Positions 1 through 59,710 of a stretch of 64,000 nt of DNA are shown here, in pieces (the first letter of the stretch is position 1; each line of letters begins with the position of its first letter). Under the pieces are notes generated by a model. The model did not search any database and was not told the origin of the DNA. It was given only the letters and a program-made list of their open reading frames with translations. Source of the DNA: Hesseltinella vesiculosa (taxonomy: Eukaryota > Mucoromycota > Mucoromycetes > Mucorales > Cunninghamellaceae). The position numbers and the translations under genes were made by a program. The stretch covers positions 593,223-657,222 of the forward strand of contig MCGT01000013.1 in NCBI GenBank assembly GCA_002104935.1. Direction: 5' to 3'.

Positions 1-483
1 ATTCAGCTAGTCTGATCACAGAGATTCGAGCAGATATCGGAATGTGAAATTCTGACTTTTCTTTTTTTTCAAGATCAATGGATTGACGTAAAACTACGCA
101 TGGGTAAATAACGTGTTGAGTGGTGATGATACTAAAAAAAAATAGATCGATTGGTAGAGATCTCCTAGCTAATATTTAGCAGGTTAGTTTTGATGTGTCT
201 CAAAACTTCAGCTAAAAAATGCCATTTTTTCAGATGACTCCCAGGCGAACTGATCAAATATCAACTTCAAATTCGTCAAAAATCGATTCACATCAAATTT
301 TGCACATGGAGGGGTAATAATGGTACACACCTCTCAGGCATGGAAGTGATGGGCTAGGGATTGTCGACATGCAATTTAAGCATAAATTATAAAAATCTCA
401 GGCATATCGAAAGCTCAGGCCTACTGCTTTATCAGTTTGTGTTCCGTGCAACGAATCGCAACGATTATTGCCCAAATACAGGA
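1..483. other. AT-rich 5' flank of Fanzor gene, no gene seen
   Basis: No convincing coding exon on either strand. The stretch is AT-rich with short A and T runs and looks unlike the GC-richer housekeeping genes to the right. It may hold the left end of a Fanzor-carrying mobile element, but I could not define terminal inverted repeats or a target-site duplication. Confidence 0.4.
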
Positions 484-492
484 TATATAAGT
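483..492 (+). promoter_or_regulatory. possible TATA box of the Fanzor gene
   Basis: A GATATATAAG motif lies about 165 bp upstream of the chosen Fanzor ATG. A short upstream ORF (511-609, 32 codons) and an in-frame ATG at 564 lie between it and the main start. A TATA-like match is common by chance in AT-rich DNA, so this is tentative. Confidence 0.3.
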
Positions 493-653
493 TTTAAATA
501 GTAAAAGAAAATGCTCTTAGGTCAATTTACTAATATTCAACGAATCAAAAATAGAAAGGAAGAATGGGACGCAGTTGCAGAGTGGGGAAATGGCGGAGTG
601 AAAATATAACCTTTTTTTTGTTTCTTTCTTCTCGTTTTCCTTCATCACGAAAA

Positions 654-3600
654 ATGGCCCGTACCAAGCAGGGTAGAAAAAGAAGAAAAAATACGCCCGA
701 GGTGGAGTCGGATAGAACTCAGTTAGTGCCAATTGAAGAAGAAGCTGGCCCTTCTACGTCACGTATGACCAAGCATGATACATATGAATTGTCTTTTCGA
801 TGGCGCCGTTAACTAATCGCTTTTCTCATCAGGCCCTGTCAAGAGACAAAGACGAAACAAAACAAGGAATGTAACAAAAAGAAGACAGAATGCTGATGAA
901 AAAGCAGCAAAGCGTACGGGGAGAGATGAGCGTAGCCTTGCCATCGATCGACAGCGTCGATCTCGACGACCCTGCCCAACTTGTATAAGGAATGGAAACA
1001 TAGAATCGTCATTGACCCATTCAAGATCATCAAGTCGCCTATGTCCCTACCGCATACCCTCTCAACGTGCACAAGGGAACCAATTGCTTGGTGGAAAGAA
1101 GACCAAGACACTCACGATAAAGCATGGACTGTGCCCATTATTGAAATCGCTACGCAATGCCGAGAAAGAAATTTTTTTGGATGGCCTTCAAGCAGTTGTT
1201 GATTTTAATCGTCGTGTGTTGATTTGCAGTCACCTGTTTATCCTGGATTACTTCAACTCCCGCCTCACCAATGGCCTGGATATCCCTCTAGTGTTCCTGG
1301 ACTATCGGTTTGTCAATGGTGTGTTTCAGCTTGTCATTGGCCGATCTTGGTCGAACAACTCACTCTTTACTGAAGAGGTCCGTCAACACATTGAAGAATC
1401 GTTTGCCACATTTCTGATTCAGCATCCTAATGTCCACTGTCCACTGGTCCCGTCTACTGTGCGAGGGAAACGCCCTATTGGCTTTTCCAAGATTTTAACT
1501 TCCACGGCCCGCACGTACGCCTCCAGCATGGTGAATCATGTGGTCGAGGGTTTCGACCAAGCCTACATTGGTTATTTGCAAGCTCGCCTTGCTCGTTCTA
1601 TTCCAGTAAATAACTCAAAAAAACCTCCACCATTAACAGCTCACCCTTTTTTTTTTTCAATCGGAACTTAATCGCTTTCAAGTTGGAGCCCTTGCGGATT
1701 TCGTGTTTGACACGTGTGCACAAAACCAAGACTTTGAACCAGTTTGGCCGACGATCAATGTTGAAGATTCTATCGACCATGCTATGGTGGATGCCAAGGT
1801 CGACACTGCTTTGAACGAATTGATAGACGATACTTGGGACAGATGGACACAACTCGCCATTCGTATTGAACAAGAAGGACCCTTGCCACAGCAAGACGCG
1901 GATGAGGACAACCAAGACGACGAGGACAACCAAGAAGAGGATGACAACCTCTCGGTCAGCACAGCCACAGCCATGTCCATCGACACTATCTCAACCCTTG
2001 GCATCTCGCGCCTTGATGTTGCTACTGGCCCTTATACCTTGCCTCCGCTAGCTGATCCATCTCTCTCAACTGACAACGCTATTCGTAGCCAGGCTCCTCC
2101 ATCTGTGTCTATTACAACGACAACGATCACCCGGTATCCGCACCTGTTTATCAAGATTCTATTTGATGTCTTGTGCAGCTTGGAGCGCCTAAATGAAGAT
2201 CAACACACGGCACCAGCGCCACAAGCCTCCGTTCATTGGAATTGGACACATCACCAGCTCTCAGGAATGCATGACTGGAGTTATCTGAACCATCACCAGC
2301 GGTCAAAACTCGTCCGTGGTATATCCAAATCCATCAACAACAACACTCCAGTGGACATTGAACGACTGCCTCGTGTCTTTTCTCAGCAATCCCGCCAACA
2401 AGTGACCACGCTTGTGGCCGAAACGCAACGAGCTCTTGCTGCTGGCACATTCTCATCCGAAGCATACCTTGTGTCACCAAAAGTGCGTCTTTTCTCGGTC
2501 CTTCCCACACCGTCTCTCACCCGAAAATTCATTCAAGTCTCCCACGATTCTCTTGGTGAAATCATGCGCCATTTCGGATTAGAACACTACGCCGTACCTC
2601 AAGCGATTCGCCCAGTTGCTGGGCAAGTGCATGACAATTTCAAGATCCTGAACTTGAAAAGGATCCATAGTGGGTAAGTGGGAAACAAAGAGATAAAAAA
2701 AAAGGTGAGGGCATTGCCGGAAAAAGATATCTCACTTTTCATTTTCTAGTCGCGGAATCTTCCTCAATCAGCTGTATACTGATGGCTATTCCGTTTGTGT
2801 TCCATTCAAAAAGATGTCTGGTGCATCGATCGGTCAACCACTTCGACTGACCGACATTAGCCCTGTGGCCATGCAGCAAATGGACGTTTGGGGTATAGAT
2901 CCTGGCGTCACCGACATCTTTGTAGCATCAAACTCCTCCGATCCCCGTGCTTACCTCTCCCCAGCGGACCTTCCAGGTGAACCATTGCTAGCCACACCGC
3001 CGAACCCAAGGCATCAGATCCGCCGCTTTTCCAGTGCTGAATATTACGTCAAAGCTGGCTATCGAAAAACCGTCGCAAATATCAAAGCCTGGAAGCAGCA
3101 GCACGGCATCACTGAAATTGAGTCGTCCTTTGGATCGCCAAAAACAACAGTGCGCCAAAACATCACTGCCTACATCACTGAAAAGCTACGCCATTTGGAT
3201 CGCTTGCTCTTATTTTATGGCCAAGACATTCAGCAGCTCCGTTTCTTGAACTACAGGGGCGCGCAGCTCGTTAACCACGACCTGGTCAAGATATTTGTCG
3301 ACGGTGGTCGCAAGTACGGATCCCATGCCTCCAACTACAACAGCCACGACACATACATGAGCCGGCTAAATGAAGATGGCAGTTTTAAGAGTCGTCGGCG
3401 TCAGCATGCCCATCCCTCCCCTCTTCAGCCAAGGCAATGTCAAAATCAAAACCAACAAAAAAAAAAACTGACTTCTTTTTTATTCAGCGAGACAAGAAAT
3501 GGAAAGTGGCGTCCTCTGCCTTTCCAACCATCCACCCAGATACCCCTTCTGTGCATTGGTGATGGAAGATTTGGCAGGCGACGCTTCAACAAAAAGCCAC

Positions 3601-3959
3601 TTGGTCTTGCAAACCGCTTCAAGAAAGTAGTTCGATTGGCCCAGCGGCAATTCCCCATTTTGATGGTCGATGCAGACGAAGCCTTTTCGTCCAAAGTTTG
3701 CAGCAAATGTGGGAAGAAGACTTTGGCCAACGTGACGGTGGATGGTGGCGAATCGAAGTTGCATGCAGTGCAATGTTGCGAAACATGTAGCACTGTGTGG
3801 CAACGAGATTGCAACGCCTCCCGAAACATCCATGCGCTCTCCCATTTTGCTGCTCTTGGTGTGAAGCCTCTTGTTTTCACCCCCCAAGACCAAGATCAAG
3901 CCGACCCTTCCACAACCTCGCCACCAGACGCGCAACCGAACCAACCAACCCCCACTTAA
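654..3959 (+). CDS. Fanzor: eukaryotic TnpB-like RNA-guided endonuclease (possibly damaged)
   Basis: Fanzor proteins are eukaryotic homologues of transposon TnpB that cut DNA guided by an omega-RNA. Exons: 654-762, 833-1605, about 1661-2673 and 2750-3959, giving roughly 1030 residues. The first is basic (GRKRRK, NLS-like). A CPTC...CP cysteine motif (about 975-1050) is a likely zinc knuckle. The C-terminal quarter is a split RuvC: WGIDPGVTD with Asp at 2898-2900, IGDGRF around 3555, DEAFSSKVC with Glu at 3678-3680, a CSKC/CETC zinc finger (3699-3788) and QRDCNAS with Asp at 3807-3809. A possible 54-nt GC-AG intron (3434-3487) is in frame either way. The exon 2/3 junction is abnormal: the intron ends CAA where CAG is expected (1658-1660). 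The start at 654 was chosen over 564 because the extra upstream residues look like translated leader. Family call is firm; activity is doubtful. Confidence 0.85.
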
Positions 3960-4362
3960 TCCAGGTATCAAAAACCTGTACGACGTATAAGCTGTAAGTC
4001 AAAAAAAAGCAACTGTGCAGTAATCTGATCAGACTTCGCATCCACTCAGGCAAAATGACCTGTTAGTTCTTTGAACGTCTTGTCTGGCTGTAAGTAGCAA
4101 AAAAGAAGATGCCAAATTCAATTTTTCTAAGGGTGAGTGGAAAAAAATAAAAAGATGCCTAGCTTTTGCTAAACTAACCACTTCATTTTCCTTTTTCGTA
4201 GCTGACTTTTTTTCTTGCTTTGCGACTTTTTTTTTTGGAAACACAGTATGGTTTAATGGATATCATGTATGGTAGAGGTGGAAGAGGTGGACATGGAAGG
4301 TGTCATGAGAATAGGTGGGGTAGAAAACGATGGTGTGATGGAATAGCAGTAGAATTTTTTTT
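3960..4362. other. Fanzor 3' flank, candidate omega-RNA/right-end region
   Basis: This 403-bp stretch lies between the Fanzor stop and the convergent AFI1 stop. It has no credible ORF and carries T and A runs. In described Fanzor and TnpB loci the guide RNA is encoded at or just beyond the 3' end of the nuclease gene, so this is where an omega-RNA would be expected. That is inference; I see no sequence hallmark that proves it. Confidence 0.35.
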
Positions 4363-9435: not shown

Positions 9436-10424
9436 TTAAATCATGCTTGTTGGGCTCCAAAAAATCCACCCCAGCCATTTTCCAACCTTTGAGACTTTGA
9501 TGACAAGCAAGAATCAGTGGCTTCATCTCTTTTGTCTGACCATCGTTGGGACAAAAATATGGGAGATTTCTTTTCCTCTAAATGACAAGCAGAGACAAGT
9601 TGCAAAGTGCTTGAACGGCTTCCCTTCCAGCCTCGGTCTCATATCACCCATGTTAACTTCTCACCCTTCTCTCGCACTTCGAAACAGGAAGCAACAGCTT
9701 TCTTTTTAAGCCGGGAAAGACTTTTTTTTTCATTTGATCAATATAAAAATGAGGTTGCTATTCTTATGGAGCATAAGAAAGCAGGCGGAAAAAATTGGGG
9801 TTAGCTCCCTTTGCGTACCGCAGCCACGGAAATCTTTAGTAAAAGGCGAAAGATTTATACGTAAATGATCACAGTACAGGAGCAACGAGGAAAAAAAAGA
9901 AAAGAGTAGCCAGTATTCGCACCTCTTTTATAGTTTTTTTCTGGTCCAAAAAAAATTTTCTCGGAGTGTGACCGGTCCCGAGTCAGTTTTTTTCCTTAAA
10001 AAACAAAGGAGCCCCATGAAATCGAATCCAACACCGCAGAAAAAAACAGTCCTTGCAAAATCCAGGGGAAATAATTTAAACGCCTGGCGAAAATGGCTCG
10101 AAATTTGGCTGGGCAACTTAAACCAATTGACCAGCTAAGACTGGTCGTTCCCTGAGATGCACGATCTTTAGTCATACTTGTCTGATTTTTTGAACACCTG
10201 CCAATTCAGCGGCCGCCATCTCAAAAATGATTGCAGTTGGGCGAGCCATGGATACTTTTTAGAAGCGATGAGGAAAGAAACGTAGAGACAGCTTTGGGCA
10301 AGGACATAAAGCACGTTCGGGCATCCAACACCAGATGATGCACATGTTACGGTGGAATCAAGTGGCCACATGGGCTTAGCGAGGGCACATCGTGCATAAC
10401 AACAAGCATAAAACCATATTATTT
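9436..10424. other. intergenic, nothing recognised
   Basis: About 990 bp between the convergent noxR and HIRIP3-like genes. The short ORFs here have no motifs and are broken by A/T runs. It probably holds both 3' UTRs. Confidence 0.6.
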
Positions 10425-56809: not shown

Positions 56810-56849
56810 ATTTTCAACACATATGTTCCCTTGGTCTTACATTCAACAA

Positions 56850-56922
56850 GCCCTGCTAGCTCAATCGGTAGAGCGTGAGACTCTTAATCTCAAGGCTGTG
56901 GGTTCGACCCCCACGTAGGGCT
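56850..56922 (+). tRNA. tRNA-Lys(CTT) copy 1
   Basis: 73-nt tRNA. Acceptor GCCCTGC pairs with GTAGGGC (one G-U). Anticodon loop CTCTTAA in a TGAGA/TCTCA stem, anticodon CTT. A box TAGCTCAATCGG and B box GGTTCGACCC are intact, and a T-run terminator follows. Identical to the four other copies. Confidence 0.97.
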
Positions 56923-56995
56923 TTCTTTTTGCTCTTTTTGCTTCCTTCTTTCACGGCTTAATCCAATCGTGATCTTTTTTTTTTGCCCATCGGGT

Positions 56996-57083
56996 TTAGG
57001 GTATAGGGTATAGGGTATAGGGTACAGGGTATGAGGTATAGGGTACAGGGTATGAGGTATAGGGTACAGGGTATGAGGTATAC
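56996..57083 (+). repeat. 7-bp telomere-like minisatellite, left arm
   Basis: About 12 tandem 7-bp units: TTTAGGG then TATAGGG, TACAGGG and TATGAGG variants in a higher-order order. The unit differs from the telomeric TTTAGGG/TTAGGG type by one base or so. The mirror copy in the right arm has about three fewer units. Confidence 0.9.
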
Positions 57084-57428
57084 TGCTGAGGAACCTCGCC
57101 AAAAAAAAAAAAATCACTGAAGTGACCTTAAAGTGAGTGGGTGGATAGCCAAGGATGATCCATGGTTATGGCTAAAAATATAAACACCAATAATAATATA
57201 AACAGAACTGAAGTCACTTTTTATTCTTTTGGCTTAAAAAAAAAAAAATTAGAATCGTCAGATGTGCAAGATTGAATGCTTCAGAATTGACCATCAGTCA
57301 AGTTGGCGGCAAGCGACACAGCCGGTATTAAGAAATAAACGGAAGGCAGGTGTCATGGTAGGTCGGTTTTTTTAAAAAAAATTCCCACGGTCACTTCGAA
57401 ATTGACAGCCCGCTTTGAAGTTCAACAA

Positions 57429-57501
57429 GCCCTGCTAGCTCAATCGGTAGAGCGTGAGACTCTTAATCTCAAGGCTGTGGGTTCGACCCCCACGTAGGGC
57501 T
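57429..57501 (+). tRNA. tRNA-Lys(CTT) copy 2
   Basis: Identical 73-nt tRNA to copy 1. Its 5' flank (from about 57384, CCCACGGTCACTTCG) is shared with copies 3 and 4 but not with copies 1 and 5. Confidence 0.97.
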
Positions 57502-57521
57502 TTCTTTTTTGATCTTTTTGC

Positions 57522-58074
57522 CTTCGCTTTTCCATTTTTTCACGCTCCTTCCTTTTTAAGTATCTGTTTCGTCCAAATCATCCCTCCTCCGTCCTCCTTT
57601 TGTGTATCGCTAACATCATCCTCAATCACCATGCAAGCTATTTTTTTTTTGCATTTCACTCAATTCTTCTCTTTCACTTATTGTTTTTCTTTTATTTTAC
57701 AGTACTGTTTGCATCAGCACCATGCAACATATACAATATCTATTCAGCATGATTTTTTTTTTCGAACAGATCAATCCCCAGTTCAACCTCTTCCGATCCC
57801 AGTCAAATCAAGAGTACAGTTAGAGTAGCGTCAATGACCAATGAATATGGTTATCAGATACCTTTCTGAAGAATACTTGAAATGTCAACGTTACATCACT
57901 GGCTTGGGCATAAAGAACCAGCTTGTCAAAAAAATAAAAAAAAAGAGAGCGAACTCAAATCTTACTCGTATGAAAGACTTTGCAAGCCGGGCTTTTTTGA
58001 TTGATATGCTGCTGCTGCTAGCATGTGCCACATACTAACACAACTTTATTAAAAAGTCCATGTCACGTGACTTT
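57522..58074. other. spacer inside the tRNA-Lys cluster
   Basis: T-rich DNA with short ORFs lacking motifs; no gene seen. Confidence 0.5.
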
Positions 58075-58131
58075 TATTAAAAATTTCCCACGGTCACTTC
58101 GCCATTGACAGCCCGCTTTGAAGTTCAACAA

Positions 58132-58204
58132 GCCCTGCTAGCTCAATCGGTAGAGCGTGAGACTCTTAATCTCAAGGCTGTGGGTTCGACCCCCACGTAG
58201 GGCT
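58132..58204 (+). tRNA. tRNA-Lys(CTT) copy 3
   Basis: Identical 73-nt tRNA. The upstream ~50 bp (from about 58085) match those of copies 2 and 4 with one small change (GCCATTGAC for GAAATTGAC), so it is a partial third repeat outside the main arms. Confidence 0.97.
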
Positions 58205-59017
58205 TTCTTTTTGCCGCCGTCACCCTCGTTGGTCGATGGCTTGCTGCCTTTTTTTTTTGGACCTTCTCTCTCTACATCTTTCTTACTGTTTTTTTTTGCA
58301 TTACAGTTCATCACCTGTCTTTTTTTTTCCCAAGAGTATTACAGTATTAATCTACTTTTATTTTTTTACCCCCTGTTAAATACAAAAATAAAATAAAAAA
58401 AGAACACTCCTAAATCTCAGCTGGTTCTTCTGTCATTCCAATATCTCAGAAATTGGCGCTCGGCCGCGCTCCCAGCTTACACATGAGAAATAAATACTCG
58501 GTCTTACTCATCTTTAACAAAGCTCAAGAAGACTTTTTTTCACACCACCCTCTTTTTCTTTTTCCCATTAATGAACTTCAAGAGAGAGTGCGAGAACTGG
58601 AACTTACATCAGAACACTGCAATATACCGTGTCTGACCCATGCTCTATACCTTTTCTGAACTTGCCACCCGTCAAAATATCAACTAACCTCTTTAAAAAA
58701 AAAAAAAAAAATAAAAAATAAACATCAATGTGAAATTACAGCATGCATGGTTGATGTAACTCATGACATGACGCTGAAAAAAAAAAAATTGAATGGTTCG
58801 ATGAAGGTCGATCATGTCGAATCACTTTGTTTCAAATCCGAATTTCAGAAAAAAAAAAAATTGGGAGAGAGAGAAATGTTTGAAAAAAAATAGAAGCAGC
58901 AACGAACGAGAGTGATGGCGACAAAAGAAGCTAAAATGAAACACAACCCCGTATCCTATACCCAATGGCAAAATAAAAGAAGAAAATCACGAAAGATTAA
59001 AGTCATGAAATAAGGAG
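58205..59017. other. spacer inside the tRNA-Lys cluster
   Basis: AT-rich with many A-runs, no motif-bearing ORF. It separates the plus-strand from the minus-strand tRNA-Lys genes. Confidence 0.5.
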
Positions 59018-59037
59018 GCAAAAAGAGCAAAAAAGAA

Positions 59038-59110
59038 AGCCCTACGTGGGGGTCGAACCCACAGCCTTGAGATTAAGAGTCTCACGCTCTACCGATTGAG
59101 CTAGCAGGGC
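59038..59110 (-). tRNA. tRNA-Lys(CTT) copy 4
   Basis: Identical 73-nt tRNA on the minus strand; mirror of copy 2, with the same CCCACGGTCACTTCG upstream flank. Confidence 0.97.
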
Positions 59111-59458
59111 TTGTTGAACTTCAAAGCGGGCTGTCAATTTCGAAGTGACCGTGGGAATTTTTTTTTAAAAAAACCGACCTACCATGACACCTGCCTTCCG
59201 TTTATTTCTTAATACCGGCTGTGTCGCTTGCCGCCAACTTGACTGATGGTCAATTCTGAAGCATTCAATCTTGCACATCTGACGATTCTAATTTTTTTTT
59301 TTTTAAGCCAAAAGAATAAAAAGTGACTTCAGTTCTGTTTATATTATTATTGGTGTTTATATTTTTAGCCATAACCATGGATCATCCTTGGCTATCCACC
59401 CACTCACTTTAAGGTCACTTCAGTGATTTTTTTTTTTTTTTGGCGAGGTTCCTCAGCA

Positions 59459-59526
59459 GTATACCTCATACCCTGTACCCTATACCTCATACCCTGTACC
59501 CTATACCCTATACCCTGTACCCTAAA
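59459..59526 (-). repeat. 7-bp telomere-like minisatellite, right arm
   Basis: Reverse-complement array of the same TATAGGG/TACAGGG/TATGAGG units, about nine units, flanked by the same unique sequence as in the left arm. Confidence 0.9.
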
Positions 59527-59597
59527 CCCGATGGGCAAAAAAAAAGATCACGATTGGATTAAGCCGTGAAAGAAGGAAGCAAAAAGAGCAAAAAGAA

Positions 59598-59670
59598 AGC
59601 CCTACGTGGGGGTCGAACCCACAGCCTTGAGATTAAGAGTCTCACGCTCTACCGATTGAGCTAGCAGGGC
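59598..59670 (-). tRNA. tRNA-Lys(CTT) copy 5
   Basis: Identical 73-nt tRNA on the minus strand; mirror of copy 1. GC-rich palindrome copy C begins 41 bp upstream of its 5' end. Confidence 0.97.
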
Positions 59671-59710
59671 TTGTTGAATTGATAGACCGTAGAAAGGGCC
59701 TTGTTGTGAA

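Follow-up and report, generated by a model that had tools for sequence, protein, structure and literature searches.

A predicted Fanzor1-type gene in a multi-copy element with Tc1/mariner-type ends in Hesseltinella vesiculosa, and a candidate omega-RNA stem-loop at its stop codon

Results

A Fanzor gene within a Tc1/mariner-type element

The window, a stretch of 64,000 nucleotides that is analysed here as a whole, corresponds to positions 593223-657222 of contig C5 in the 27.05-Mb, 85-contig genome of Hesseltinella vesiculosa. Near its left edge, at 654-3959, lies a gene that is very probably of the Fanzor1 type, encoding a predicted RNA-guided nuclease and residing in a multi-copy element with Tc1/mariner-type ends. 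Fanzor proteins are the eukaryotic cousins of CRISPR nucleases. The features of the element and of the gene, all on the plus strand, are as follows.

1..4248, plus strand: Tc1/mariner-type element, the part within the window; sharp ends common to the copies, TA at the ends
654..762, plus strand: exon 1, begins MARTKQ; intron 1 is flanked by GTATGA...CATCAG in 13 of 13 covering copies, window included
833..1605, plus strand: exon 2, from copy comparison
973..1044, plus strand: C-x2-C-x11-H-x7-C motif, zinc-knuckle-like; recurs in L059, L060, L061 and L062
1606..1663, plus strand: intron 2, acceptor lost (CG at 1662-1663); AG in 12 of 12 other covering copies
1664..2673, plus strand: exon 3, from copy comparison
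2750..3433, plus strand: exon 4, with WGIDPG and the putative catalytic Asp681 at 2898-2900
3434..3487, plus strand: intron 4, GC donor in the window copy, 54 nt, in frame if retained
3488..3959, plus strand: exon 5, with Glu923 at 3678-3680, C4 zinc finger at 3699-3788, Asp966 at 3807-3809 and the stop codon at 3957-3959
4237..4248, plus strand: right end GGAAACACAGTA, its final TA being half of the target duplication

The element of the window copy starts 207 bases left of the window (L052:4517) and runs to 4248, a length of 4455 bp, with 44 bases absent near the left end relative to other copies. Its right end, GGAAACACAGTA, is followed by unrelated DNA, and left ends read TACAGTGTTTYC or near variants. 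Inverted ends (CAGTGTTTCC-like on the left, GGAAACACAG on the right) together with a TA target duplication are of the Tc1/mariner type; TA was present at all nine readable left ends and at 9 of 10 right ends.

For comparison we fetched 13 close relatives which, with the window's own locus, make 14 copies. Blast with the window region matched all 13 others, ten at 96.5-98% identity and three (L040, L048 and L049) at 89-95%. Several of the ten are partial: L039 matches from 2845 only, L044 from 580, L051 is ended by the contig end, and L042 and L045 are without 86-579. The match of the three diverged copies stops at 3576, before the catalytic Glu, and other sequence follows. End-sequence searches of the genome returned 21 and 16 places, which comprise these copies, fragments and the ends of other elements. 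Judged by its ends and its relatives, the window Fanzor is a transposon-borne copy and not a lone gene. That it might be a domesticated host gene derived from a Fanzor, as its single place between host genes could suggest, is hardly credible: the element ends are intact and carry a TA duplication, 13 close copies lie elsewhere, the damage is specific to the window copy, and a lone or domesticated gene is ruled out by the 14 examined copies with element ends. The initial annotation had described the gene as lying beside housekeeping genes, which holds for its position only, the Fanzor gene being a transposon insertion.

The right neighbour of the element is a minus-strand gene with Afi1 and SPA domains. 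Elsewhere in the window, the minus strand carries a gene for U5 spliceosomal RNA (9770-9884), and five tRNA-Lys (CTT) genes lie within 2.8 kb (56849-59671), split three to two between the strands.

DDE_3 was detected at 164 places in the genome, none of which was tied to the Fanzor-element ends. Patterns for the ends matched at 10 left-end places and one right-end place, and in the sequence read around these matches, the C85:53262 flanks and L056-L058 excepted, no transposase was seen.

The copies and their flanks show further rearrangements. Window segment 86-579 is absent in L042 and L045, where 85 joins 580, and present in L041, L043, L046 and L047. In the left flanks of L043, L045, L048 and L051 the Fanzor elements are adjoined by a repeat some 780 bp long whose inverted ends measure about 115 bp, and DDE_3 fragments lie beside or inside this repeat at C3:248204, C33:111332 and C34:997143. 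A composite exists in three copies, L048 (C33), L049 (C64) and L040 (C56), in which an A-type Fanzor truncated before the catalytic Glu is followed by same-direction frames of a second, diverged Fanzor bearing two Cys/His knuckles, CTACGSPHHATSRSRQCP and CNTCGLPGHSRASHPACP; identity between L048 and L049 is 97% across 7.6 kb.

The predicted protein carries the Fanzor signature

The initial annotation had identified a Fanzor gene at 654-3959 from its motifs and had proposed a search with HMM profiles. In this search PF07282 (TnpB/Cas12f zinc domain; Cas12f1-like TNB) matched 2709-3956 with 38.4 bits against a cut-off of 26.3 (E 1.4e-9), and the spliced window protein scored 37.3 bits. A single frame holds WGIDPG, IGDG, the Glu at 3678-3680, the CSKC...CETC zinc finger and QRDCNAS, in the order first described. 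As had also been noted, IGDG is without a Glu, and one follows about 40 residues on; Glu923 lies 41 residues after the start of IGDG and six residues before the zinc finger (C930). As the initial annotation had stated, a relocated Glu is a published Fanzor feature: the available text of PMC10711439 gives the Fanzor signature as DPG plus a relocated Glu (Ealt) six residues before the zinc finger, and the window protein has DPG at 681, E923 and C930. Its arrangement D-x244-SS-xx-C4-x5-RD likewise fits the Fanzor1 motif D-X(125,275)-[TS]-[TS]-X-X-C4 finger-X(5,50)-RD in the available text of PMC3627910. The spacing DPG-x(120,160)-E does not occur, as the gap in the window protein is 239 residues; where PMC10711439 describes it, that spacing is a search pattern for TnpBs and not the definition of Fanzor1, whose published motif permits a longer gap.

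When the window protein and five relatives were combined into a profile, 24 PDB matches resulted, with SpuFz1 first (E 1.8e-10), GtFz1 at 8.9e-5 and most others being TnpB and Cas12 relatives; none of the 24 was a chain named for PpFz1. The window sequence alone matched only TnpB-like L79 (E 0.21) and Cas12m (E 0.24). In the alignment to SpuFz1 the zinc finger falls in a second, weak stretch that scores 6.4 bits; there the Glu (DE) and the last Asp (RD) are in register. The first Asp is not. A single-sequence structure model of the window protein was uninformative (mean pLDDT 35.2), and of 27 stretches that fitted a pattern for viral relatives, none was confirmed. Within the genome, PF07282 was found at 46 places at E <= 0.001, and the RuvC part of the window, used as a query, matched at least 100 places, 100 of 197 candidates being scored.

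Families B, C5 and C78 (L036/L003, L007 and L001) carry a long low-complexity RuvC insert between GGxKY and the strand before GDG/GNG, with AIAIAIA-like runs in families B and C5; in the family of the window copy this position holds no more than a short stretch.

The N-terminus was read in four relatives, and the extra N-terminal cysteine motif of the initial annotation recurred in each. The window protein reads CPTC-x11-H-x7-C at 973-1044, and L059, L060, L061 and L062 have CPTC, CTTC, CPTC and CAAC, respectively, then a His and CP. We take this Cys/His motif to resemble a zinc knuckle; no Pfam family matches it in the window protein. The window family protein begins MARTKQ (654-671), which resembles the histone H3 tail. 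L060, the one relative with a clear start, begins differently (MTIEVHRFKQ), so the likeness is likely due to chance.

Five exons and a probably disabled window copy

Comparison of the 14 copies gave a spliced product of five exons and 1015 amino acids, the exon limits being set from the placement of indels and from the splice sites of other copies. Relative to the window, indels fall mostly in introns 2, 3 and 4 (1616-1645, 2694-2742 and 3451-3482) in ten of the 13 copies; five of these ten have no exonic indel and five have one to three, with an 11-base deletion at 1307 common to L046 and L050. The three diverged copies, L040, L048 and L049, have many exonic indels. Of the 14 copies, four (the window copy, L042, L044 and L045) have an uninterrupted frame through every exon, and L042, L044 and L045 combine it with a preserved intron-2 acceptor. 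Among 10 copies, a set that takes in L049 and damaged copies, each of the 45 pairs has a dN/dS between 0.20 and 0.50, indicating that the protein was under purifying selection between transpositions. The three putative catalytic codons do not differ among the 10 copies that extend over them.

The intron-2 acceptor reads CAATCG in the window and ATAG in all 12 other covering copies. The intron-4 donor is GC in the window and in L042, and among the other 11 readable copies it is GT in ten and AT in one. Because its intron-2 acceptor is lost, the window copy would probably yield no normal protein, and it is probably a recently disabled member of the family. A window copy that is still functional would have to splice intron 2 at the upstream AG at 1639 and either splice intron 4 through its GC donor or retain it. 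Use of AG 1639 would add eight residues without a frame shift and leave an open frame of 1041 aa, and the 54 nt of intron 4 contain no stop codon; however, intron 2 would then be 34 nt long, shorter than the other four introns of the gene (54-76 nt), and loss of the AG is unique among 13 copies, which makes continued function improbable.

A conserved stem-loop at the stop codon

The region between the stop codon and the right end, examined by alignment and folding, contains three further features.

3962..3978, plus strand: stem-loop CAGGT-ATCAAAA-ACCTG, candidate first omega-RNA stem; compensatory changes at five of six pairs in eight sequences
3994..3999, plus strand: GTAAGT, 5' splice site-like; GTAAG[TC] after the stem in eight of eight aligned sequences
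4174..4201, plus strand: CTAAC resembling a branch point, with a pyrimidine tract and TAG; 47 nt short of the right end

An ATCAAAA-like loop on a stem is present at or near the stop codon in several Fanzor families of the genome. A perfect stem with AAAA in the loop was detected in 7 of 14 sequences scanned (A, B, C5, C78, L064, L065 and L070) and an imperfect or variant stem was seen by eye in L067, L069, L053 and L054; in L063, L066 and L068 the stem-loop was not seen. Further copies of A and B (C21 included) have the same stem. Family B has the right end GGAAATACAGTA and its protein is 30-42% identical to that of the window family (A); L053 and L054 end in GGAAACACAGTA and share 82-84% identity with the window family over the last 85-93 bases.

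The stem alignment has eight rows (A, B, C34, L069, C5, C78, L064 and L067), with L053, L054, L065 and L070 set aside as unalignable past the stem. Pairing occurs in 93.8% of its 48 cells, a percentage inflated because the rows were chosen for showing the stem, and both sides have changed at five of the six pairs. None of 500 shuffles reached the percentage paired or the covariation score, six reached the number of pairs changed on both sides, and 204 reached the number of further pair types; slid versions of the alignment pair in 19-44%. We regard the stem-loop as a good candidate for where the omega-RNA begins.

Splice-like signals between the stem and the right end

In all eight rows GTAAG[TC] lies 12-17 bases past the six-pair stem. 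A full intron signal of donor, branch point and acceptor, by criteria fixed after the sequences were inspected, is found in A, B and D54, where it ends 47-56 nt before the right end and is reached in 0.07-0.13% of shuffles. D53 is missing the donor, and the full signal is present in three of the four families with a known right end; since A and D54 share homologous sequence over their last 85-93 bases, A, B and D54 are not three independent cases. Genome-wide, ATCAAAA-N18-24-GTAAGT occurs at 34 places versus 13 for the reversed control, 12 of the 34 at Fanzor 3' ends, and AATGAAAATG-N18-24-GTAAGT at nine places versus none for the control, all nine at Fanzor 3' ends. Both patterns were drawn from these families, so that the counts indicate that the signal pair is not widespread elsewhere and do not amount to a prediction.

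Variation among ten A copies was also compared. Of the 242 positions in 3960-4201, 6 are variable. The coding introns have 29 variable positions in 258 (Fisher p 9e-5 against 3960-4201), the exons 152 in 3048 (p 0.09) and the last 47 bases of the element three. The lower variability of 3960-4201 relative to the coding introns speaks against plain intron removal, as an intron that is simply removed would be expected to vary as those do.

One tentative reading of this region is an unspliced omega-RNA that spans the roughly 290 nt between stop codon and right end; the splice-like words would then be structural or would serve as a U1 site for read-through past the end. This reading agrees with 3960-4201 being as conserved as the exons among the copies, and with the pairing of the donor-like words: in L064 and C5, GTAAGT or GTAAGC forms one side of a possible second hairpin, and in the fold of family B, GTGAGT is paired with ACTCACC. 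However, it leaves unexplained the branch point and acceptor common to A, B and D54, and the longest of the three Fanzor1 omega-RNAs given in the available text of PMC11423790 is 150 nt.

A bolder and rather unlikely possibility is that the omega-RNA is split by a spliceosomal intron, with the GTAAGT at 3994 as donor and the RNA resuming at 4202, which would give a scaffold of about 81 nt (80-100 across families) followed by a guide from the flank. The three-part signal of A, B and D54, its rarity in shuffles and the GTAAG[TC] of every aligned sequence favour splicing, and the joined length would be near the 75-nt SpuFz1 scaffold of PMC10432273, as given in its available text. The conservation of 3960-4201 argues against it, as do the missing donor of D53, the post hoc criteria, the pairing that GTAAGT or GTGAGT may have in some families, and L064 and L067, in which no acceptor was recognised. 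For a helix across the junction the pair counts are 8 in A, 7 in B and 8 in D54, no better than chance, as shuffled second exons do as well in 54, 41 and 69%, respectively.

Discussion

The window gene is of a known kind, an ordinary member of the Fanzor family. The initial annotation had suggested an undescribed Fanzor/OMEGA lineage, which our comparison of motifs, profiles and literature does not support: in 2013, PMC3627910 had already reported Fanzor1 from Mariner elements, and also from Mucor, Rhizopus and Phycomyces.

The following comparisons draw on the available parts of the cited papers. SpuFz1 (Spizellomyces punctatus Fanzor1, PDB 8gkh) resembles the window family as a fungal Fanzor1 of multi-copy elements with inverted repeats (PMC10432273). 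Its omega-RNA lies between the stop codon and the right end, and its guide RNA consists of a 75-nt scaffold and a guide of 14-15 nt (PMC10432273). SpuFz1 is encoded by a single open frame in a 2.1-kb locus, whereas the window Fanzor of 1015 aa is spread over five exons and, unlike SpuFz1, has an N-terminal Cys/His motif; the 3' region measures 289 bp in the window family versus about 80 in SpuFz1 (PMC10432273). The PUl-4-type Fanzor1 is like the window element in being Fanzor-only, with Mariner inverted repeats and TA duplications (PMC3627910). In contrast, the mucoralean Fanzor families of PMC3627910, compared by description alone, are MuDr-type or unclassified. PpFz1 of Parasitella parasitica, whose structure is published, is like the window protein a Fanzor1 of a mucoralean fungus, and differs from it by a cyclophilin-binding insertion otherwise described only in Rhizopus (PMC11423790).

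We propose that in working copies a transcript would extend from near the stop codon past the right end and into the flank, and that this 3' part would become the omega-RNA, with the first 15 or so flanking bases as guide. The nuclease would then cut the matching empty site, through which the element may be retained or spread; for movement itself, a Tc1/mariner transposase would have to be provided in trans. The initial annotation had proposed 3960-4362 as the source of the RNA. With the element ending at 4248, positions 4249-4362 are flank and do not belong to an RNA encoded by the element; the guide would still use the first flanking bases.

We know of no spliced guide RNA of an OMEGA system so far. 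A search of the literature, subscription papers excepted, found no earlier report of a spliced Fanzor guide RNA, and the word "intron" is absent from the main text of PMC10711439, PMC10432273 and PMC11423790.

Fanzor genes are abundant in early-diverging fungi, and few of them have been studied. With near-identical and diverged copies, exact ends and a covarying stem-loop in one genome, the omega-RNA and its guide can be predicted directly and tested. If the splice signals are real, production of the Fanzor guide RNA would be tied to the spliceosome, which would bear on the adaptation of a bacterial system to RNA processing in eukaryotes.
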